From Burkholderiaceae bacterium (lineage in GTDB: Bacteria > Pseudomonadota > Gammaproteobacteria > Burkholderiales > Burkholderiaceae_D): 8,855 nucleotides of DNA. Numbering within the stretch: the stretch's first letter is position 1; each line of letters starts with the position of its first letter. Made by a program: the position numbers and the translations under genes. Shown piece after piece: positions 707 to 8,092 of this stretch. The stretch lies in contig JAIELO010000398.1 in NCBI GenBank assembly GCA_019752915.1, positions 1 through 8,855 of the forward strand, read 5' to 3'. Below the pieces are notes generated by a model that made no database searches, had not been told where the DNA came from, and saw only the letters and a list, made by a program, of their open reading frames with translations.

Positions 707-853
707 CTAAAGGCCGCGCCCGTTGATCAGTCGCAGCAAGACCATGATGACGGCGACCACCAGCAGTATATGGATGAAGCCGCCGATGGTGTAGGACGTT
801 ACTAGCCCCAGCAGCCAGAGGATGATAAGTACCACAGCGATGGTGTACAGCAT
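707..853 (-). CDS. Lmo0937-type small membrane protein (48 aa)
   Basis: A 48-residue ORF starting MLYTIAVVLIILWLLGLVTS and ending RLINGRGL. It has two hydrophobic stretches (residues about 3-20 and 24-42) around a YTIGG turn, and a short basic tail. This pattern is that of the lmo0937 (DUF5670) family of tiny two-helix membrane proteins, whose function is unknown; they often sit among stress genes in proteobacteria. The start is fixed by AAGGAG at 860-865, 6 nt before the ATG. A 9-bp hairpin lies just upstream in the predicted leader (875-899), and the palindromic promoter motif at 977-990 lies further upstream. I assign the family from the sequence pattern only. Confidence 0.85.
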   Translation of the reverse strand: MLYTIAVVLIILWLLGLVTSYTIGGFIHILLVVAVIMVLLRLINGRGL

Positions 854-948: not shown

Positions 949-990
949 ATTGTCACCAGCGCAGCAGTGGTCGTCCGTACGCTAGCGTAC
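949..990 (-). promoter_or_regulatory. Predicted promoter with palindromic operator for the Lmo0937-type gene
   Basis: The operator-like repeat GTACGCTAGCGTAC (977-990) is a perfect 14-bp palindrome. Reading the minus strand, exactly 22 nt separate it from GACAAT (954-949), a 4/6 match to the -10 consensus. This would start transcription near 942, put the repeat at about -41.5 and give a leader of about 89 nt. The same repeat and the same 22-nt spacing recur at four other predicted promoters in the window. The repeat directly follows the stop codon (991-993) of the glycine-zipper gene. Confidence 0.6.
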
Positions 991-1581
991 TTAATCCGCG
1001 CGCAACTGACCGTGTTCGATGCGTACCGCATCACCTTCATGCCAGTCCGGCTGGTTCGCCTGTTGCAGCACGCGGTGCTTACCGTTCTCCATACGGACCG
1101 TAATTTCCCAGTGGCGGGTGCTCTGCATCTTGCCCTCGACCTGATTGCCCGCGACCGCACCGCCGACCGCACCGGCGACGGTGGCCAGTTGACGGCCATG
1201 TCCGCTACCGACCTGATTGCCCAGCAAACCACCGAGGATGGCGCCGCCCGCAGCGCCGACACCGCTGGCCTGTCCGCGTTGCTCGACGCTGCGGATCGTA
1301 GTGATCACGCCGCAGGTACTGCAGGCACTGCGTTGGGCCAGCGCCGTAGGGGCGGGCGTGCTTCGGTCGTCGCTGGCAGAGCTGGCGCGGGCTGGCGCGC
1401 TTGCCACGGGCCTGTCCGCCGCTTCGGCAGCCGCACGCGCAGCCTCTTCACGCGCCTGAGTGTTGGGCAGCCAGCCCATGATGGCGGCCGTGCCAACGCC
1501 GCAGAACAGGACGACAGCCAGTGCCGCGCTCAGCAGCAGAGGATGGAGGCGCTGGCGTTGCGAGGTGGTGGGGAGATCCAT
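991..1581 (-). CDS. Membrane-anchored glycine-zipper 2TM domain protein
   Basis: A 196-residue protein. Residues 14-36 form an N-terminal membrane segment with no lipobox or obvious cleavage site. An Ala-rich, charged linker follows (about 42-85), then a CSTCG motif (87-91), then a glycine-zipper region (about 107-148) of GxxxG repeats in two blocks, AILGGLLGNQVG and AGAVGGAVAGNQVE. The C-terminal tail (about 157-196) begins HWEITVRMENG. The order CxxCG, zipper, hydrophilic tail is typical of glycine-zipper 2TM (SlyB-like) envelope proteins, whose biochemical role is poorly defined. The reading frame runs upstream well past this point, but the ATG at 1581 has AAGGA 7 nt before it and opens the membrane segment, so I chose it. 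It is divergent from the Crp/Fnr gene and shares its palindromic operator. Confidence 0.85.
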   Translation of the reverse strand: MDLPTTSQRQRLHPLLLSAALAVVLFCGVGTAAIMGWLPNTQAREEAARAAAEAADRPVASAPARASSASDDRSTPAPTALAQRSACSTCGVITTIRSVEQRGQASGVGAAGGAILGGLLGNQVGSGHGRQLATVAGAVGGAVAGNQVEGKMQSTRHWEITVRMENGKHRVLQQANQPDWHEGDAVRIEHGQLRAD

Positions 1582-1616
1582 GTTGTTGTCCTTGTAGTGT
1601 TCGTGTAGGTGGGCAG

Positions 1617-1658
1617 ATTTTCCACCAAGACAGTTTTTTCTTCCGTGCGTTAGCGTAC
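1617..1658 (-). promoter_or_regulatory. Predicted promoter of the glycine-zipper gene (leftward side of shared operator)
   Basis: Read on the minus strand, the repeat is GTACGCTAACGCAC (1658-1645), one mismatch from a perfect palindrome. It is followed after 22 nt by GAAAAT (1622-1617), a 4/6 match to the -10 consensus. The predicted start is near 1610, giving a leader of about 29 nt that contains the AAGGA ribosome site. The repeat would be centred near -41.5. Confidence 0.5.
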
Positions 1659-1686
1659 ATACGGCGTATGTTTGCACCAGTACGCT
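1645..1686 (+). promoter_or_regulatory. Predicted autoregulated promoter of the Crp/Fnr gene (rightward side of shared operator)
   Basis: The repeat GTGCGTTAGCGTAC (1645-1658) is followed after 22 nt by TACGCT (1681-1686), a weak -10 that keeps the first T, the A and the last T. The matching start would fall at about 1693, which is the first base of the chosen ATG. A second palindrome, ACATACG-G-CGTATGT (1657-1671), overlaps the end of the first by 2 bp and occupies the -35 to spacer region, where it could act as an additional operator. This promoter is weaker evidence than the one at 4941. Confidence 0.45.
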
Positions 1687-1692
1687 CGTGGC

Positions 1693-2442
1693 ATGTCTAT
1701 TCCAAGCACGATGCTTTGCGCTGATGAGCTCAGTAGGCTGTGCCTGCCGCAGAATCGTCTCCTTGCCAGTCTGCCCGAGTCGGAGCGCGGTAGTCTGCTG
1801 GCCAGTTGCATCCTGCGGCGTGTACAGGCCGCCGAAGTGCTGGCGGAGCCCGGTCAGGTGATGCCGCAGATCTTCTTCCCGCTCGATACGCTGGTGTCTC
1901 TGCTGGCCGTCGCGGAAGGGCGCATGACGCTCGAGGTGGTGCTGGTGGGACAGGAGGGCATGGTTGGTGCCTCGGCAGCGCTGAGCGCGCGCCCCGCGCA
2001 GTTTCGTGCGGTGGTGCAGCGGGCTGGCTGGCTGGTCTGTCTCGAGGCAACACAGTTCCGGCGCGCTTTCGAACGGATGCCGTCCTTGCAACGGCAGGTT
2101 CAGCGTTACACGGATGTGCTACTGGCGCAAGCACTGCAGATTGCCATGTGCAGCCGCTTTCACATACTGGAGGCGCGGTTGGCCCGTTCGCTGCTCATCA
2201 CCCGCGAGCGCTTGCGCCTGGAGAAGTTCCATCTGACACATGAGTTTCTGGCCCAGATGCTGGGGGTGCGGCGGGTCGGTGTGACCAAAGCCGCCTCGGC
2301 TTTGCAGCACAAACAGCTGATCTGCTATAGCCGCGGCAATATCGAAATGCTCGATGCAGCAGGGCTGGCAGCCGTTGCCTGCCCCTGCTACTCGCTGGTA
2401 AAAGAGGATGGCGCCCTCGGCGTCGGGCAGGTGTATCGCTAG
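1693..2442 (+). CDS. Crp/Fnr-family transcriptional regulator
   Basis: A 249-residue protein with an N-terminal cyclic-nucleotide-binding-like beta-roll (about 20-130), a dimerisation helix (about 131-158) and a C-terminal winged helix. The helix-turn-helix spans about 181-210 (LTHEFLAQMLGVRRVGVTKAA), followed by the wing YSRGNIEMLD and a CPCYSLVKE tail. It belongs to a divergent Crp/Fnr group common in proteobacteria. I see no cAMP-binding RGE signature and no Fnr-type N-terminal cysteine cluster, so its signal is unknown. The recognition helix reads RRVGVTK where E. coli Crp has SRETVGR, so the Crp Glu181 position is Val. The ATG at 1693 lacks a Shine-Dalgarno; alternatives are TTG 1672 and ATG 1711, neither better supported. 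It is convergent with the gene at 2474-2698 and is the likely regulator of the palindrome-bearing promoters. Confidence 0.88.
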   Translation: MSIPSTMLCADELSRLCLPQNRLLASLPESERGSLLASCILRRVQAAEVLAEPGQVMPQIFFPLDTLVSLLAVAEGRMTLEVVLVGQEGMVGASAALSARPAQFRAVVQRAGWLVCLEATQFRRAFERMPSLQRQVQRYTDVLLAQALQIAMCSRFHILEARLARSLLITRERLRLEKFHLTHEFLAQMLGVRRVGVTKAASALQHKQLICYSRGNIEMLDAAGLAAVACPCYSLVKEDGALGVGQVYR

Positions 2443-2473
2443 TCCGCCCGGCGCTTCAGTAGATTGAGCGGGC

Positions 2474-2698
2474 CTAGCGGGGTGGTTTGCTGACTTGATT
2501 GCCGATCACGCCACCTACGGCAGCACCACCGACGGCGCCGGCTGCGCTGCCGCCCGTCAGTACCGAACCGGCGACAGCGCCGACCCCGGCACCGATGGCG
2601 GTGTTCTGATCGCGCGCCGACATATTGCTGCAGGCGCTCAGGCTCAAGCTACTGGCAAGCAGCAGGCTGCTGCCAAGGATGCGTAGGAATTGTTTCAT
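2474..2698 (-). CDS. OsmB-like small glycine-zipper lipoprotein
   Basis: A 74-residue precursor. It has a basic N-terminus (MKQFLR), a hydrophobic core and a lipobox LSAC with the acylated Cys at residue 23, leaving a mature peptide of about 52 residues. Residues 35-68 are almost wholly Gly, Ala, Val and Ser in GxxxG spacing (IGAGVGAVAGSVLTGG, then AVGGAAVGGVIGNQV), the pattern of OsmB and other glycine-zipper lipoproteins. OsmB itself is osmotically induced in E. coli; here induction is only inferred. GGAG lies 7 nt before the ATG. The gene is the second glycine-zipper envelope gene in the window and has a copy of the shared palindrome about 118 nt upstream. Confidence 0.85.
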   Translation of the reverse strand: MKQFLRILGSSLLLASSLSLSACSNMSARDQNTAIGAGVGAVAGSVLTGGSAAGAVGGAAVGGVIGNQVSKPPR

Positions 2699-2788
2699 GA
2701 TGTTCTCCGGAATGACGCGGGCGTGGATGATGACCTATGGCGCCAGGCGTACACAGCACTTGGACGCCACAGGCACTCGCATGAAAAT

Positions 2789-2830
2789 AGGCTAGCAGGA
2801 TTCGATGATGTGCTCTGTTCGCTAGCGCAC
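2789..2830 (-). promoter_or_regulatory. Predicted promoter with palindromic operator for the OsmB-like gene
   Basis: On the minus strand GTGCGCTAGCGAAC (2830-2817) has an AGCGAAC half-site in place of AGCGTAC. It is followed after 22 nt by TAGCCT (2794-2789), a weak -10 keeping the first T, the A and the last T. A TATTTT 5 nt further on (2789-2784) is an alternative. The predicted leader is about 84 nt. The repeat contains the TAG stop codon of the AsmA-family gene (2824-2822), so operator and coding end overlap. Confidence 0.45.
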
Positions 2831-4831
2831 TTTGCGCGGCACCGCGCGCTCTGCCCCGAGCAGCGCGGCGCAGTCGTTACCTTCTGCGCTACCGTTGCTG
2901 ATCAAGGGCAGCAATGCCGCGATCGGTGCCACGCTGGCCAGTGCCAGAGCACCGCCGGCGCGCAGTGCCAGCACGCCTTTGTCGATGCTGACGACGGGCT
3001 GTTTGAAGCTGCCGCGCAGATAGATGGGCGCGCGTAGCGAGAATATGCGCACGCCTTTCGATTGCGGCCGCAACGTCAGGTTCAGCTGCTCATTGCGCAG
3101 ATTGACGCTGCCACTGGCATCGACACGCGCTTCGTTGGTATCGGCGGCCCAGACGCGCGTCTGCATCAGGCCCTGCGTCACGCTGAAGTCCCCCAGCATG
3201 CAATGCAGTTGCACCGGCTTGTCGCCCACCAGCTTGGTCAGCACGACGCTGCCGAGGTTCAAGCCCATCTCTTCGAGCAAGAGTTTCGAGACGCTGCCTT
3301 GCGTGACGACGCTACGCAGCGTGCCATTGGCGCTGCCGAGCAGGCTGGCGATCGAGTTGCCGCTGGCCTGTAGCGTCAGGTCGGCGTTGACTTCGCCCAC
3401 CGTGGCCTGCATCGCGTCGATGCGCGGGAATAGCTGGTTTAGCCGCAGGTGGCTGGCCCTCGCTTGCAGCTGGGCGGCGATGGCATCAGGTCCGTGCTGG
3501 CCGCTGCCGTCCAGCTGCAAGGTGGCCTGAAAGCGCCCGCCGGCGATCTCGAATTGCAGGGGAGCGAGTTGTAGCACACCATCACGCAAGCTGATCAGGG
3601 TATTGACTTGCGTGATGGGCAAATCGCCATCGCGGGTGATGTGGTCGGCGCGGTAGCGCACCTCGGCGTCCAGCGCGCGCCAGCGCACTCGATGAAACGC
3701 TTCGACGGGTAATACTTTATTGTCCGGTTGTACGGCGGCGACGCCGCGCGCCTGTTTGCTGCGGTTGGAGTCGGCGCCGATCAGCGGTGCCAGATCGTTC
3801 AGGCGCAGCAAGCTGGAGTGGAGGGCGCCGCTCAGGCGCGGTCTCGGCAGTTGCGCGCCATAGCGGTAGTCCAGCGAGCCGGCAAGGTCGGACTCGCCGA
3901 CTTTGCCCGTAAAACGCTGGTATTGCCAGTGGCTGGCCTGTGCGCCCAGTTCGCCATGCAGATGGCCCGACGTGGTGAAGGCCGGGGTCTCCGGCAACAG
4001 CACGCCGGTCAAGCCGTACAGTCGTGCCATGCTGGGCCCGGACAGGGTGAGCTGGGCATCAATGCTGGTCAGGCTGGCCGGGCGCGTCAGCGTGCCCAGC
4101 ACGGCGATTCGGCTGCCGCCTACCGTCAGCAGCCCTTCCAGCGGATACGGCTGGAGTTGCTGTTGCAGCCCCAGCACAGCGCCGGCCTTGCCGCTGCCGC
4201 TGACGGGCTGCTGCTTCCAGTGGCCCTGCAGTTGCCACCCGATACCGTAGCGAGGATCGGCATCCAGCGTCTGCAGATTGGCGATGAGGTCGAGCTGCTG
4301 CACGGCGTCGTGCAGCTCGATGCGCGCCGCGCTAAATTCGATCGAACGCAGTTCGAGGGTCCATGCTCCCGCTGCGCGGGCGGGCGGCGTTTGCCAGTTG
4401 CTACGCCCGTCTGTCTGACGTACCAGTTGCAGCTGCGGCCGGGTGAAGCGCAGCAGTGGGATGCTCAGACGGTGCTGGAGTAGCGGGAGTAATTCCAGCT
4501 CGACCAGCACCCGTTCGATGCTGGCCAGTTCGCCCATAGCGGCCATGCCGGGCGGATTGCCCAGATGCAGGTCATACGCTTCCAGATGTGCCTGGGGCAG
4601 ATAGTCGCGCCAGCCGCGGCGTTGCGCGGTGCCGGCCGGCAGTGTCCAGCGCAGCAACAGCTCGCCACGGATGGCGACGGGACGCTGTAGCGCCAGACTG
4701 AGTTTTTCATTCAGCCAGGGGCGGGCGCGGTTCCAGTCCGCCATCTGTAGCCAGAGCAGGCCGCCCAGCAGCAGCGCGCACAACAGCCCGAGCGCGCTGA
4801 AGGTGATGGTTCTGGTTCGGCCTGGCTGCAT
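2822..4831 (-). CDS. AsmA-family protein
   Basis: A 669-residue protein of the AsmA type: large proteins anchored in the inner membrane whose repeated beta-strand groove spans the periplasm and which are implicated in outer-membrane lipid homeostasis. A single membrane segment at residues 9-29 follows a basic N-terminus. The family-typical start of the periplasmic part is seen at about 37-62 (ARPWLNEKLSLALQRPVAI). The conserved C-terminal block begins LNLTLRPQSKGVRIFSLRAP and runs through YLRGSFKQPVVSIDKG, ending in an Ala/Leu-rich stretch and a basic tail. An ATG six codons upstream (4849) is in frame, but it has no Shine-Dalgarno, whereas AGGAG lies 7 nt before the ATG at 4831, so I chose 4831. 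No convincing promoter is visible; the palindrome at 4941-4954 lacks a -10 on this side. Confidence 0.9.
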   Translation of the reverse strand: MQPGRTRTITFSALGLLCALLLGGLLWLQMADWNRARPWLNEKLSLALQRPVAIRGELLLRWTLPAGTAQRRGWRDYLPQAHLEAYDLHLGNPPGMAAMGELASIERVLVELELLPLLQHRLSIPLLRFTRPQLQLVRQTDGRSNWQTPPARAAGAWTLELRSIEFSAARIELHDAVQQLDLIANLQTLDADPRYGIGWQLQGHWKQQPVSGSGKAGAVLGLQQQLQPYPLEGLLTVGGSRIAVLGTLTRPASLTSIDAQLTLSGPSMARLYGLTGVLLPETPAFTTSGHLHGELGAQASHWQYQRFTGKVGESDLAGSLDYRYGAQLPRPRLSGALHSSLLRLNDLAPLIGADSNRSKQARGVAAVQPDNKVLPVEAFHRVRWRALDAEVRYRADHITRDGDLPITQVNTLISLRDGVLQLAPLQFEIAGGRFQATLQLDGSGQHGPDAIAAQLQARASHLRLNQLFPRIDAMQATVGEVNADLTLQASGNSIASLLGSANGTLRSVVTQGSVSKLLLEEMGLNLGSVVLTKLVGDKPVQLHCMLGDFSVTQGLMQTRVWAADTNEARVDASGSVNLRNEQLNLTLRPQSKGVRIFSLRAPIYLRGSFKQPVVSIDKGVLALRAGGALALASVAPIAALLPLISNGSAEGNDCAALLGAERAVPRKVR

Positions 4832-4940
4832 GATGACGCTCCTGTGCATTGGGTGCTGCCTAGCTTACTCCGGTTGTGCGAAGCGGTGGCGTGTGTTGCC
4901 GCACGCTGGTCAGTGGACGCTGCAGCAGATCGGGAAGTAC

Positions 4941-4982
4941 GTGCGCTAGCGTACTGAAACCGTTGCGTCTTGCGTCTATAAC
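4941..4982 (+). promoter_or_regulatory. Predicted promoter with palindromic operator for the six-gene envelope operon
   Basis: The best promoter in the window. The repeat GTGCGCTAGCGTAC (4941-4954) abuts a -35-like CTGAAA (4954-4959, 4/6). A 17-nt spacer follows, then TATAAC (4977-4982, 5/6). A start at about 4989 would place the centre of the repeat (4947.5) at -41.5, the class II activator position of Crp and Fnr. The spacer holds a tandem duplication of TTGCGTC (4963-4969 and 4970-4976). The Shine-Dalgarno AAGGAG at 5003-5008 lies downstream, before the ATG at 5016. Confidence 0.65.
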
Positions 4983-5015: not shown

Positions 5016-5420
5016 ATGAAACAGGCAAGCGTGAGTCTACCCCCCGGTAGTGTGGTCTGGATGCCAGCGATGCTGCTGGCGCTGCTGTTATCCGGTTGTG
5101 CCAGTGATAAAACCCCGGCCACTGCCGATGTTGCCGTGTCGCAGGCGGCCGTGGCAGCAGCCACCAGTGCCGGTGCGGCCACTGTCGCGCCGGACGAGAT
5201 GCAGGCGGCGCGCGACAAGTTGACGCGTGCCAATAAGGCGCTGGCAGACCACGACTACCGCACGGCAACGGACTGGGCCAATCAGGCCGCTGCCGATGCC
5301 CAGCTGGCGCAGAGCAAGGCCAACTCGGCCAAGGCCGCCACGGCGGCGGAAGAGCTGCAGAAGAGCATACAGGCATTGCGCGAAGAACTTGCACGTTCGC
5401 CAACGACTAACAAACAATAG
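5016..5420 (+). CDS. DUF4398 domain lipoprotein
   Basis: A 134-residue precursor with a long N-region, a hydrophobic core and a lipobox LSGC with Cys at residue 28. The mature part is Ala-rich and helical: residues about 58-105 (PDEMQAARDKLTRANKALAD and onward) match the DUF4398 pattern, a helical hairpin of unknown function often found next to or fused with OmpA domains. The tail (about 107-128) continues as a predicted coiled coil. AAGGAG 7 nt before the ATG fixes this start over the internal ATGs nearer the lipobox. It is the first gene of the six-gene operon. Its stop codon forms part of the ribosome site of the next gene, 9 nt downstream, so translation is probably coupled. Confidence 0.87.
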   Translation: MKQASVSLPPGSVVWMPAMLLALLLSGCASDKTPATADVAVSQAAVAAATSAGAATVAPDEMQAARDKLTRANKALADHDYRTATDWANQAAADAQLAQSKANSAKAATAAEELQKSIQALREELARSPTTNKQ

Positions 5421-5429
5421 GAGAATGTG

Positions 5430-6359
5430 ATGACGATTAGCTATAGTAAGAAGCTGCGCGTACTGCCGGCGGCGCTGGTGTTGAGTTTGCTGGTGGTCGC
5501 TTGCAGTTCGGTGCCCGTCAGTACCAGTCAGCTGGACCGCGCCCGTGGCGATTATGTGGCGGCGCAGAATGATCCGGCAGTCGCCAGTTCGGCTCCGCTG
5601 GAGTGGCGTGCTGCCAGTGAGGCGCTGGACCGCGCCAACAACGCGGCCAGCCGCCGCGAACGCAGCGAAGCGATCGATCAGCTGGCCTATCTGGCGCAGC
5701 AGAAAATTGCAACCGCGCAGGAAGTGGCGCGCCAGAAGCAGGCTGAAGCCAGTGTGGCGCAGGCCGGGCAACAGCGCGACGCCTTGCGTCTGCAACAACG
5801 CACGGCGGAGGCAGATCAGGCACGTAGTGCTGCCGATCGCGCCCGAAGTGCTGCCGAACAGGCGCGCAGTGCGGCCGAGCAGGCCCGGGCGCAGGCCGCG
5901 GCTGCCACCGGCAGTGCGCGCGAAACCGAAGCCCGTAATGCCGCGCTTCAGCAGCAACTGGCTGACCTGCAGGCCAAGCAGACCGAGCGCGGTATCGTGA
6001 TTACCCTCAACGATGTGCTGTTCCAGATTGATCGCGCCGAGCTCAGTCCGGACGGTATGCGCACCGCGCAGAAGCTGGCCGATGTGCTGACGCAAGCGCC
6101 TCAAAGCGTGGTGCTGATTGAAGGCTTTACCGATAGCACCGGTTCGGCCGACCATAATCTGCAGCTTTCGCAGCGGCGTGCCGATGCCGTGCGCGCGGCG
6201 CTGGTGGGGCTGGGTGTGCCACAGGAAAAGATCACCACGCGTGGCTATGGCGAGGCATATCCGGTGGCCAGCAATGTCGATGCACCGAGCCGTCAGCTAA
6301 ATCGTCGGGTAGAAATTGTCATGTCGCAAAATGGCGCACCGATTGCCAGTCGTCGCTAA
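5430..6359 (+). CDS. OmpA-family lipoprotein with N-terminal DUF4398 domain
   Basis: A 309-residue precursor with a signal segment (about 9-24) and a possible lipobox VVAC (Cys25). Residues about 33-108 form a second DUF4398-like helical domain (EALDRANNAASRRERSEAID and onward). A coiled-coil region about 110-187 contains four consecutive 7-residue units of the QARSAAE type (codons 5817-5900). The C-terminal OmpA-like domain (about 188-298) carries GFTDSTG with Asp235 and LSQRRADAV with Arg250, equivalent to E. coli OmpA Asp271 and Arg286, which hold the diaminopimelate of peptidoglycan, and ends RQLNRRVEIV. It most likely tethers the outer membrane to peptidoglycan by a helical arm. AGGAG 6 nt before the ATG at 5430 rules out the in-frame GTG at 5427. 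Confidence 0.9.
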   Translation: MTISYSKKLRVLPAALVLSLLVVACSSVPVSTSQLDRARGDYVAAQNDPAVASSAPLEWRAASEALDRANNAASRRERSEAIDQLAYLAQQKIATAQEVARQKQAEASVAQAGQQRDALRLQQRTAEADQARSAADRARSAAEQARSAAEQARAQAAAATGSARETEARNAALQQQLADLQAKQTERGIVITLNDVLFQIDRAELSPDGMRTAQKLADVLTQAPQSVVLIEGFTDSTGSADHNLQLSQRRADAVRAALVGLGVPQEKITTRGYGEAYPVASNVDAPSRQLNRRVEIVMSQNGAPIASRR

Positions 6360-6376
6360 CGAGGGGAGTGTGCATC

Positions 6377-6913
6377 ATGAATGAGAATACGGAATCCCAC
6401 GCCGGCGGTATCGATGTCAACGCGATTCGCGCGGCGGCACGCAATCTGAAAGACGGTGCAGTGACGGCCGGCTATCAGGGCGATCGTGTCGCCGTGCTGG
6501 CCATGCTCAACGATGCGCTGGCTACCGAACTGGTCTGCATATTGCGCTACAAACGCCACTACTACACGGTCACAGGGCGCGAGCATGCGCCCATCAAGGC
6601 CGAGTTTCTCGAACACGCCCTGCAGGAGCAGGAACATGCCGACTGGCTGGCCGAACGCATCGTCCAGTTGAATGGTCAACCTGATTTCAATCCGGCAACA
6701 TTGCTCGCACGTAGTCATGCCGAGTATGATGTCTGTGAGGATGTGCAATCGATGGTGCAAGCCAATCTGATCGCCGAGCGGGTAGCGATAGAATCCTACC
6801 GGCAGATGGTGGCGCAGATCGGCGACAGCGATCCCACGACACGGCATTTGCTGGTCAAAATCATGGCCGTCGAGGAGGAGCACGCTGACGATATGCGCGA
6901 CCTGCTGGAATAA
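6377..6913 (+). CDS. Ferritin-like (bacterioferritin-type) protein lacking the haem ligand
   Basis: A 178-residue four-helix ferritin-like protein. A complete set of di-iron ligands can be placed against E. coli Bfr: Glu51 (LATELV), Glu84 and His87 (EQEHADW), Glu134 (IAERVAIES), Glu166 and His169 (VEEEHA), matching Bfr Glu18, Glu51, His54, Glu94, Glu127 and His130. The haem-binding Met52 of Bfr is replaced by Gln85, so I predict a non-haem protein. It probably oxidises and stores iron or scavenges peroxide in the cytoplasm. The N-terminus is about 30 residues longer than Bfr. The in-frame GTG at 6368 lies inside the ribosome site; ATG 6377, 8 nt after AGGGGAG, is preferred. It follows the OmpA gene by 17 nt. 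Confidence 0.85.
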   Translation: MNENTESHAGGIDVNAIRAAARNLKDGAVTAGYQGDRVAVLAMLNDALATELVCILRYKRHYYTVTGREHAPIKAEFLEHALQEQEHADWLAERIVQLNGQPDFNPATLLARSHAEYDVCEDVQSMVQANLIAERVAIESYRQMVAQIGDSDPTTRHLLVKIMAVEEEHADDMRDLLE

Positions 6914-6914
6914 T

Positions 6915-6939
6915 GCAAAATTGGTATTTTGCTGTACAG
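6915..6939. promoter_or_regulatory. AT-rich inverted repeat plus CTGTACAG palindrome in the operon's largest gap
   Basis: Just after the ferritin stop codon, GCAAAAT (6915-6921) and ATTTTGC (6926-6932) form a perfect 7-bp inverted repeat around TGGT. It is followed by the 8-bp palindrome CTGTACAG (6932-6939). A possible promoter overlaps it: TTTTGC (6927-6932), 16 nt, CATACT (6949-6954). This could be a secondary promoter or operator for the downstream YqjD/YqjE/YqjK-like genes, or an mRNA processing or stability hairpin. The sequence does not decide between them. Confidence 0.35.
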
Positions 6940-6974
6940 TGAAGACTTCATACTACCGGAATAGGAGCTAAATC

Positions 6975-7277
6975 ATGCTGGAACAAAACATCAGTACCGT
7001 GAACAACGACGTGAAAACGCTGGTCAAAGATGCGCAGGCATTGTTCACCGCCGCCACGGCGCTGACGGGCGAAAAAGCCGACGAATTGCGTGGTCGCGGT
7101 ATGCGCGCACTCGATTCGGCGCTGGCCAAAGCGCAGGAAGCGCAGCAGAGTGCCATCGCTGCCGGCAAAGAAGCGGCCAAACATGCCGACGAGTACGTCA
7201 AAGAAAACCCATGGCGTTCGATCGCTGCCGCGGCGGGTATCGGTCTGCTGATCGGTGTCATCATCGGTCGCAAGTAA
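6975..7277 (+). CDS. YqjD/ElaB-family (DUF883) membrane-anchored protein
   Basis: A 100-residue protein with the hallmark layout of the ElaB/YqjD family: a long amphipathic, Ala/Lys-rich helix (about 5-75), the signature YVKENPWRS (74-82), and a single C-terminal membrane helix rich in Gly (83-98) ending in GRK. In E. coli YqjD is a stationary-phase inner-membrane protein that binds ribosomes through its cytoplasmic part; whether this homologue does so is untested. AGGAG lies 7 nt before the ATG. It precedes the YqjE-like gene by 6 nt, the same order as in the E. coli yqjD-yqjE-yqjK cluster. Confidence 0.9.
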   Translation: MLEQNISTVNNDVKTLVKDAQALFTAATALTGEKADELRGRGMRALDSALAKAQEAQQSAIAAGKEAAKHADEYVKENPWRSIAAAAGIGLLIGVIIGRK

Positions 7278-7283
7278 GCCATC

Positions 7284-7664
7284 GTGACAGAGTCTTCTCA
7301 ACGCCCGCCCGGCCTGATCGCTTCGCTGGGCAATGTTGCCCGCAATAGCCTCGGGCTGCTTCTGACGCGGCTGGAACTGGCCGCGCTGGAATTGTCCGAA
7401 GTGCGCAATCACTTGCTGTTGCTGGTGCTGGTGTTCGCGCTGGCGGTGGTGGCGGGGTGTTTTGCGCTGGCCTATGCCACGGTGACCATTGTGTATCTGG
7501 CGTGGAACGTGCTGGGCTGGCTGATCCTGCCACTGATGACGGGCGTGTTTCTGGTGCTGGCGCTGGGCCTGGTCCTGTATGCGCGGCGTCTGATTCGTAG
7601 CGGCAAGCTGTCAATGCCGGCCACCATGGCGGAGCTGAAATCAGACCGCGATATGCTGCTATGA
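7284..7664 (+). CDS. YqjE-like phage-holin-superfamily membrane protein
   Basis: A 126-residue protein with an N-terminal amphipathic segment (about 10-40; LLLTRLELAALELSEVR is characteristic of the YqjE/holin-X group), two membrane helices (about 43-68 and 76-100) and a basic, hydrophilic C-terminus. Databases often label such proteins 'phage holin family', but the context is a chromosomal stress operon. The start is a GTG only 6 nt after the stop of the YqjD-like gene, with no strong Shine-Dalgarno, suggesting translational coupling. Confidence 0.85.
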   Translation: MTESSQRPPGLIASLGNVARNSLGLLLTRLELAALELSEVRNHLLLLVLVFALAVVAGCFALAYATVTIVYLAWNVLGWLILPLMTGVFLVLALGLVLYARRLIRSGKLSMPATMAELKSDRDMLL

Positions 7665-7675
7665 GGGGAGGGGCG

Positions 7676-8047
7676 ATGAGCAAGGAAGCACAAGCTGCCG
7701 CTCTGGCAGCCGAGAAGCAGCGATTGATCCGCGAAGGCGAGTTGTACCGGATCAAGGTGGTGCATGCCAAAGCCTTGGTTGGCAATGCCTTGCAGCCGGA
7801 TGCACTGGTGCATGGCGCTGTCGAGCATGTAGTGTGTCTGGCGCAATCGCGGCTGGGCGGACTGCTGCAACCGGGTGGTTTGCAAGGGCTGGATGTGAAA
7901 TGGCTGATGCCGTATGCACTCACCGTCGGCTCCTACATCATGCGCAAGCGTATGCTGAAGCCGGCGCTGGTGCTGACGCTGGCAGCCGGTGTGGCCGCAG
8001 CCTGGGTACGGCGGCGTCGAACGGGCACGCCTACCGAGCAGGAATAG
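7676..8047 (+). CDS. YqjK-position hypothetical membrane protein
   Basis: A 123-residue protein that I do not recognise with certainty. Its place after YqjD- and YqjE-like genes is that of E. coli yqjK. The N-terminus (1-50) is a charged helix (AAEKQRLIREGELYRIKVVH), the middle (51-75) is Gly/Leu-rich, and a C-terminal hydrophobic segment (about 96-111) ends in four Arg, suggesting a cytoplasmic protein with a C-terminal membrane anchor. An ATG at 7661 overlaps the previous stop but has no ribosome site, while GGAG lies 5 nt before the ATG at 7676, so I chose 7676. The operon's terminator follows 6 nt after the stop codon. Confidence 0.75.
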   Translation: MSKEAQAAALAAEKQRLIREGELYRIKVVHAKALVGNALQPDALVHGAVEHVVCLAQSRLGGLLQPGGLQGLDVKWLMPYALTVGSYIMRKRMLKPALVLTLAAGVAAAWVRRRRTGTPTEQE

Positions 8048-8053
8048 AGTTTG

Positions 8054-8077
8054 AACGCCGCTTTTGCGGCGTTTTTT
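8054..8077 (+). terminator. Intrinsic terminator of the six-gene operon
   Basis: AACGCCGC (8054-8061) pairs perfectly with GCGGCGTT (8066-8073) around a TTTT loop, and the stem runs into six consecutive T (8072-8077). It lies between the YqjK-like gene and the patatin gene, and separates the operon from it. Confidence 0.93.
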
Positions 8078-8092
8078 CGTTGGAGTTTGCAG

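Follow-up and report, generated by a model that had tools for sequence, protein, structure and literature searches.

A conserved 14-bp operator with fixed promoter spacing in a putative Crp/Fnr-type stress regulon of Burkholderiaceae

Why should a 14-base-pair (bp) palindrome recur four times among small envelope and stress genes and a gene for a Crp/Fnr-type regulator, here called crp? The question is raised by an 8,855-nucleotide (nt) stretch of DNA from a Burkholderiaceae bacterium (contig JAIELO010000398.1), called the window below. We consider it likely that the four palindromes are copies of one operator, bound by the crp product, which would act as a class II activator of its own gene and of a wider stress regulon. 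At the level of sequence it is established that the operator exists, that it is conserved and strictly spaced from a -10-like hexamer, and that in relatives it turns up again at stress genes outside the locus. Binding and activation by the local protein are supported, not proven, by the co-occurrence of its recognition helix with the operator and by the parallel with NtcA and CAP.

The operator and its spacing to a -10-like hexamer

An earlier note on this DNA had reported the four palindromes, and all are present where it placed them (Table 1). The exact motif GTNCGYTAGCGNAC is found at 4 places in the 2,714,634-base genome that contains the window, all of them inside the window, and its control pattern at 0 forward and 1 reverse; this draft genome (2.71 megabases) is 61% complete, in 448 contigs, and further copies may be missing from it. 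With up to three mismatches on both strands, the window holds 14 matches against 2.47 expected, and 0 of 200 shuffles reach 14. The note had also placed no copy deep inside a gene. Operators 2 and 4 are intergenic, operator 1 abuts the stop codon of the glycine-zipper gene, and operator 3 overlaps that of the AsmA gene.

Close Crp/Fnr orthologues (E < 1e-80) occur in 57 of 59 same-genus relatives by protein search; in this search, as in the bare-motif scan of the window's own genome and the motif scan of 61 genomes described below, individual matches are those among the matches listed. The 16-kilobase (kb) stretches around 55 same-genus orthologues (G017 and G041 left out) and 1 more distant one formed the locus set. 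The gene order DUF5670, glycine zipper, crp, OsmB-like, AsmA, DUF4398, OmpA, ferritin-like, DUF883, YqjE, YqjK is largely common to the relatives, whose loci differ by local insertions and losses within it. When all short inverted repeats were counted, with no motif given, GTACG-N4-CGTAC emerged as the top five-base dyad, found between genes in 35 of 56 loci and within coding sequence in 0. The core claimed in the note needs correcting: the conserved part is GTNCG-N4-CGNAC, and most relatives do not keep the YTAG centre. GTNCG-N4-CGNAC is seen again in relatives at the crp, DUF5670, DUF4398, OsmB-like, second glycine-zipper and ilvE-divergent genes; its third half-site base is A in 46%, G in 37% and T in 17% (C was excluded by the pattern).

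The operator is kept at the same promoters across the 55 same-genus loci, a recurrence whose absence the note had named as evidence against its reading. It precedes crp in 55 of 55, inside a near-invariant TTCC-GTGCGTYASCGTAC-ATACA block, of which eight invariant bases were demanded by the search pattern and the rest were not; two half-site bases outside that pattern and most of the TTCC...ATACA flanks are invariant, and most other flanking columns vary. The loci that carry names come from Duganella, Pseudoduganella, Rugamonas, Massilia, Janthinobacterium, Telluria, Undibacterium and Herminiimonas. In those with at least 57% identity, a set that overlaps the 55, an operator precedes crp by no more than 350 bases in 62 of 62; among the more distant loci L164-L168, 1 of 5 has one upstream. 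Across the 55 loci, 326 operators fall in sequence without a protein match versus 6 in protein-matched sequence (383 kb), and none of those 6 has the hexamer.

To read the promoter geometry, nAnnnT was scored at every distance between 8 and 44 nt from the palindrome. Offset 22 stands out at crp (55/55), glycine zipper (54/55), DUF5670 (52/52; the other 3 of 55 sites, more than 200 bases away, were excluded), OsmB-like (25/32) and ilvE-divergent sites (29/30), for comparison with a mean of 1.6 to 4.0 hexamers per offset at these sites. The same offset is also the peak on the AsmA side of the AsmA/DUF4398 gap (21 of 67 sites) and at the second glycine zipper (24 of 62); the DUF4398 slot, counted through TATAAC instead of nAnnnT, has TATAAC there in 33 of 81 sites. 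Taken together, 277 of the 326 intergenic operators carry a hexamer (nAnnnT, TATAA or TACAA) at offset 22 on at least one side, and the next offset reaches 83, the median being 31. Operator 2 lies at an equal distance from a hexamer on both sides. With transcription assumed to start 7 nt after the hexamer, the predicted operator centre is -41.5, so that on these predicted starts the site lies where class II activator-dependent promoters have theirs. The crp start is predicted on the gene's own ATG, and an ATG occupies that base in 27 of 55 loci.

This spacing bears on one alternative, that the copies are chance palindromes, a DNA-modification or CTAG effect, or an RNA hairpin. CTAG is scarce, as the note says: 400 kb of two relatives contain 103 where 265 would be expected, and the window contains 9 where 12.8 would be. 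Three copies carry it, as claimed (at 982, 2822 and 4946), and copies 1 and 4 could pair as RNA. CTAG is, however, not conserved in relatives, for which reason it was rejected as the key element, and the hexamer spacing is fixed; we give this explanation almost no credence. An RNA hairpin or terminator was likewise rejected, folding being no better than in shuffles (z 0.65, -1.09, 0.11 and -0.61), and Rfam gave no match at gathering thresholds. Six crp regions (392 kb) contain 58 operators, 37 with nAnnnT at 22, versus 4 operators, 0 intergenic and 0 with the hexamer, in 400 kb of control sequence elsewhere in two of those genomes. What marks the targets is the motif and the -10 spacing together, not the bare motif.

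Targets elsewhere in relatives

Within the relatives' loci, operators also accompany genes for a BON protein, a second glycine-zipper lipoprotein, an OmpA barrel protein, a PF10136 'site-specific recombinase' protein and a 205-amino-acid protein. Unlinked operator genes encode an apparently secreted Ala/Lys-rich protein, CsbD, the DNA ligase LigD, a Pyrid_ox_like protein and a protein with a sub-threshold YflT match. The local regulon with members elsewhere that the earlier note had proposed, with BON, glycine-zipper, CsbD and other stress genes among them, thus gains support from relatives, both at the same promoters and at unlinked stress genes.

Four of the unlinked targets were followed across relatives, in counts that include the genes that prompted each search. 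The Ala/Lys-rich protein has operator and hexamer in 27 of 27 orthologues and in 0 of 3 distant paralogues. An exact operator precedes CsbD in 21 of 30 cases (20 with the hexamer) and LigD in 15 of 30 (14 with the hexamer), and each gene adds 8 cases of a one-mismatch operator with hexamer. For Pyrid_ox_like, 19 of 30 loci were counted (the 11 most distant, L460-L470, were left out): exact operator in 6, with hexamer in 5, and a one-mismatch operator with hexamer in a further 5. By way of control, the 400 bases upstream of 278 genes yielded 1 exact operator, 0 with hexamer, and 2 one-mismatch operators with hexamer. Of random 380-base stretches drawn from the 400-kb control sequence, 0.33% contained the exact operator, and 0.7% a one-mismatch operator accompanied by the hexamer. 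The window's own draft genome gave no match to the Ala/Lys-rich, CsbD, LigD or Pyrid_ox_like queries, which its 61% completeness may explain.

Of the 15 LigD genes with an exact operator, 11 have it starting 48 bases ahead of an ATG, so that a leaderless message may be used for LigD as for crp.

Genome scans gave a mixed picture. The strict form of the motif, in four relatives, matched 32 times forward against 10 for the control and 26 times in reverse against 13. These matches correspond to 41 distinct sites, 18 of them at the crp locus. A further 20 sites, hand-picked among the matches listed in the 61-genome scan, include 12 with the hexamer at 22, of which 3 look like chance. One candidate, the operator of relative G005 at C88:18023, was rejected for want of a hexamer.

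Two arrangements were observed besides these. In G010 (L198 ~4859-4977 and L199 4183) the OmpA barrel gene and the gene of the 205-amino-acid protein are divergent, each with operator and hexamer; the latter protein has no Pfam match. In G008 (L183 1501-1539 and L379) a large gene is preceded by two operators spaced 25 bases apart; judged by eye, it resembles a glucan synthase gene. A relative of this gene in G014 also has an operator, and the 342-amino-acid part of it that was searched has no Pfam match.

The candidate regulator and the predicted promoters of the window

The crp product has a Crp-type C-terminal helix-turn-helix (PF13545, 46.8 bits versus a cut-off of 27) and an N-terminal cyclic-nucleotide-binding-like barrel. 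Its structural model is confident and of CRP/FNR type, and Foldseek and VIA-align give only CRP/FNR-type rows among the matches listed. Of 146 aligned rows, which take in paralogues, distant relatives and genomes counted twice, 112 have the recognition helix LGVRRVGVTKAASALQ unchanged. In a narrower alignment of 24 sequences (the window protein and 23 relatives down to 37% identity), R193, R194, V197 and T198 are invariant, as are Cys153, His157, Cys230, Cys232 and Tyr233. The invariant Cys/His set could possibly be a redox or metal sensor site, which is a guess. The protein also has Cys9 and Cys17 in its N-terminal part, where FNR proper has the cysteines of its 4Fe-4S cluster and which most orthologue rows, starting at about residue 20, do not cover. 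The 24 sequences include homologues from metagenome-assembled genomes labelled Gemmatimonadetes and cyanobacterium.

Helix and operator occur together beyond the genus: in other families of the order, the gene of a protein with a GVRREGVT helix is preceded by an operator in 10 of 19 loci, and that of a protein with another helix in 0 of 4. In the proposed mechanism, the crp product would bind GTNCG-N4-CGNAC, and binding at -41.5 would activate, as by a class II activator, rather than repress. Operator 2 alone would serve both the glycine-zipper gene and crp, and crp would feed back on itself by self-activation, through a leaderless message.

Several results weigh against this proposal. The bare motif is not enriched in the window's own genome (70 forward matches versus 96 for the control), and among relatives only 5 of 61 genomes have more forward matches to GTRCG-N4-CGTAC than to its control. 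The earlier note had named a motif found equally often inside genes as evidence against a regulon; for the bare 14-mer there is indeed no genome-wide enrichment, and of the 23 strict-form sites away from the crp locus, 8 lie between and 15 inside predicted genes. As a target finder, the bare-motif genome scan was discarded as not specific. Of the hand-picked further sites, 8 have no hexamer at 22; only 3 of the 81 sites of the DUF4398 slot have nAnnnT itself at offset 22; and the exact operator is absent from 15 of 30 LigD, 9 of 30 CsbD and 13 of 19 Pyrid_ox_like genes. Finally, two relatives, G005 and G033, have no crp orthologue in a locus otherwise largely kept (the best matches to the crp product, among the matches listed, have E 2e-34 with 37% identity in G005 and 6e-34 in G033), and in both, operators and their hexamers persist at CsbD and LigD as well as in the locus. 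The RRVGVTK helix is present in 0 of the 16 PF13545 proteins read in these two genomes, of 22 above cut-off. Operators kept without crp therefore mean either that another protein took over binding there or that the loss is recent.

These crp-less genomes lend some weight to the idea that another regulator, for example a paralogue with an LGVRRESIT helix, is the main operator binder and crp merely one of its targets, for such a paralogue is present in both. We hold this to be unlikely: the operator accompanies crp and its GVRREGVT relatives at the frequencies given above, and 0 of 3 LGVRRESIT paralogues checked (L212, L214, L216) have an operator upstream. A separate observation concerns G008, where an operator with hexamer (G008:C1:6450271; L195 2072) is followed by an 80-amino-acid reading frame and, about 500 bases on, by an LGVRRESIT-type Crp/Fnr gene. 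This paralogue may itself be a target, and the operator before it hints at a network of Crp/Fnr proteins.

The sign of regulation has its own alternative, in which the protein binds the operator and represses, covering the -35 region of otherwise open promoters. The operator does overlap the -35 region, and repression is known for some Crp/Fnr proteins, such as NtcA at rbcL and gor (PMC3898017). The NtcA-repressed promoters described there have the box downstream of -35, and the fixed -41.5 is the activator position for NtcA there and for CAP in PMC7192510. The crp promoter, moreover, has CATACA at -35, not TTGACA. Repression thus appears quite improbable, and activation by the crp product is the reading we retain.

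By the offset-22 geometry, the window has five predicted promoters, for the DUF5670, glycine-zipper, crp and OsmB-like genes and for the DUF4398-OmpA-ferritin-DUF883 operon (Table 1). The predicted operon encodes a DUF4398 lipoprotein, a DUF4398-OmpA lipoprotein, a ferritin-like protein, a DUF883 protein (ElaB/YqjD type), a PF07332 membrane protein in the YqjE position and a small protein in the YqjK position. AsmA was dropped as a window target, no hexamer at offset 22 facing it. Judged by eye, the DUF4398-to-YqjK gene run ends, just before a patatin-like gene, in a GC-rich hairpin with a run of T behind it (8051-8080).

Table 1. Operators, predicted -10 hexamers and genes in the window
Feature	Position	Strand	Context	Basis or role
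Operator 1, GTACGCTAGCGTAC	977..990		abuts glycine-zipper gene stop codon	sequence match
Operator 2, GTGCGTTAGCGTAC	1645..1658		intergenic, flanked by divergent glycine-zipper and crp promoters	sequence match
Operator 3, GTTCGCTAGCGCAC	2817..2830		AsmA gene stop codon overlapped	sequence match
Operator 4, GTGCGCTAGCGTAC	4941..4954		intergenic	sequence match
DUF5670 small protein gene	707..853	-		predicted target
Predicted -10 GACAAT of DUF5670 gene	949..954	-	22 nt from operator 1	predicted start 942
Glycine zipper 2TM (Rick_17kDa_Anti) protein gene	991..1581	-		predicted target
Predicted -10 GAAAAT of glycine-zipper gene	1617..1622	-	22 nt from operator 2	predicted start 1610
Predicted -10 TACGCT of crp	1681..1686	+	22 nt from operator 2	predicted start 1693, A of ATG
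Crp/Fnr-type regulator gene (crp)	1693..2442	+	product of 249 amino acids	likely operator-binding protein
OsmB-like glycine-zipper lipoprotein gene	2474..2698	-	NF007830 88.1 bits, below cut-off 98	predicted target
Predicted -10 TAGCCT of OsmB-like gene	2789..2794	-	22 nt from operator 3	predicted start 2782
AsmA-family gene	2822..4849	-	no correctly spaced -10 facing gene in window	
Predicted -10 TATAAC of DUF4398 operon	4977..4982	+	22 nt from operator 4	predicted start 4989
Predicted DUF4398 operon	5016..8047	+		close same-strand gene spacing

General or envelope stress is the best reading of the predicted regulon. It would unite envelope lipoproteins, a ferritin-like protein, CsbD, LigD and other stress proteins under one Crp/Fnr protein, by a precise and testable rule (operator, 22 nt, -10 hexamer) that would allow stress genes to be predicted from sequence alone in Duganella, Massilia, Janthinobacterium and their kin. 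Such small stress proteins are widespread and, to our knowledge, rarely tied to a regulator in this group; full-text searches of an open-access library found no description of the regulator, operator or regulon among the papers listed, in part judged by title. A further and tentative suggestion, on which we remain somewhat doubtful, is that the protein is a master switch of the general stress response in Oxalobacteraceae-type bacteria, amplifying itself via its leaderless message, doing RpoS- or EcfG-like work and sensing through its Cys/His set.

Comparison with known systems

The RpoS, sigma-B and EcfG regulons have like target classes (OsmB, ElaB/YqjD, CsbD, LigD), but the targets here are marked by a Crp/Fnr-type operator and not by a sigma-factor promoter. 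SdrP/TTHA1359 of Thermus and DdrI of Deinococcus are Crp-type regulators with another operator; they belong to another phylum, and the predicted regulon here comprises CsbD, LigD, BON, glycine-zipper and OmpA-type genes. Sites of the CAP/FNR class, TGTGA-N6-TCACA and TTGAT-N4-ATCAA, are unlike the window operator in their letters, and FNR-like sites share its 14-bp length. Class II CAP/FNR promoters are alike in the position of the operator centre, CAP sites of this class being centred at -41.5 (PMC7192510).

There is a close likeness to NtcA. According to PMC3898017, its site GTA-N8-TAC is centred at -41.5 and goes with TAN3T as the -10 box; in nirA and hetC the gap between them is 22 nt. Common to both are the Crp/Fnr fold, a 14-bp dyad with outer GT(A)...(T)AC, the geometry of -41.5 (a predicted position here) and TAN3T, and an R-V-x-V-T helix, RRVGVTK resembling STRVTVTR of NtcA in the alignment. 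They differ in the inner CG...CG, which is fixed in the window operator, in the lack of clear orthology (phmmer E 0.016; 17 to 20% identity in the NtcA alignment rows) and in the predicted targets, which are envelope and stress genes and not nitrogen genes. The system would thus combine an NtcA-like operator and promoter geometry with a different half-site, a Crp/Fnr protein that is probably self-activating, and a stress and envelope regulon.

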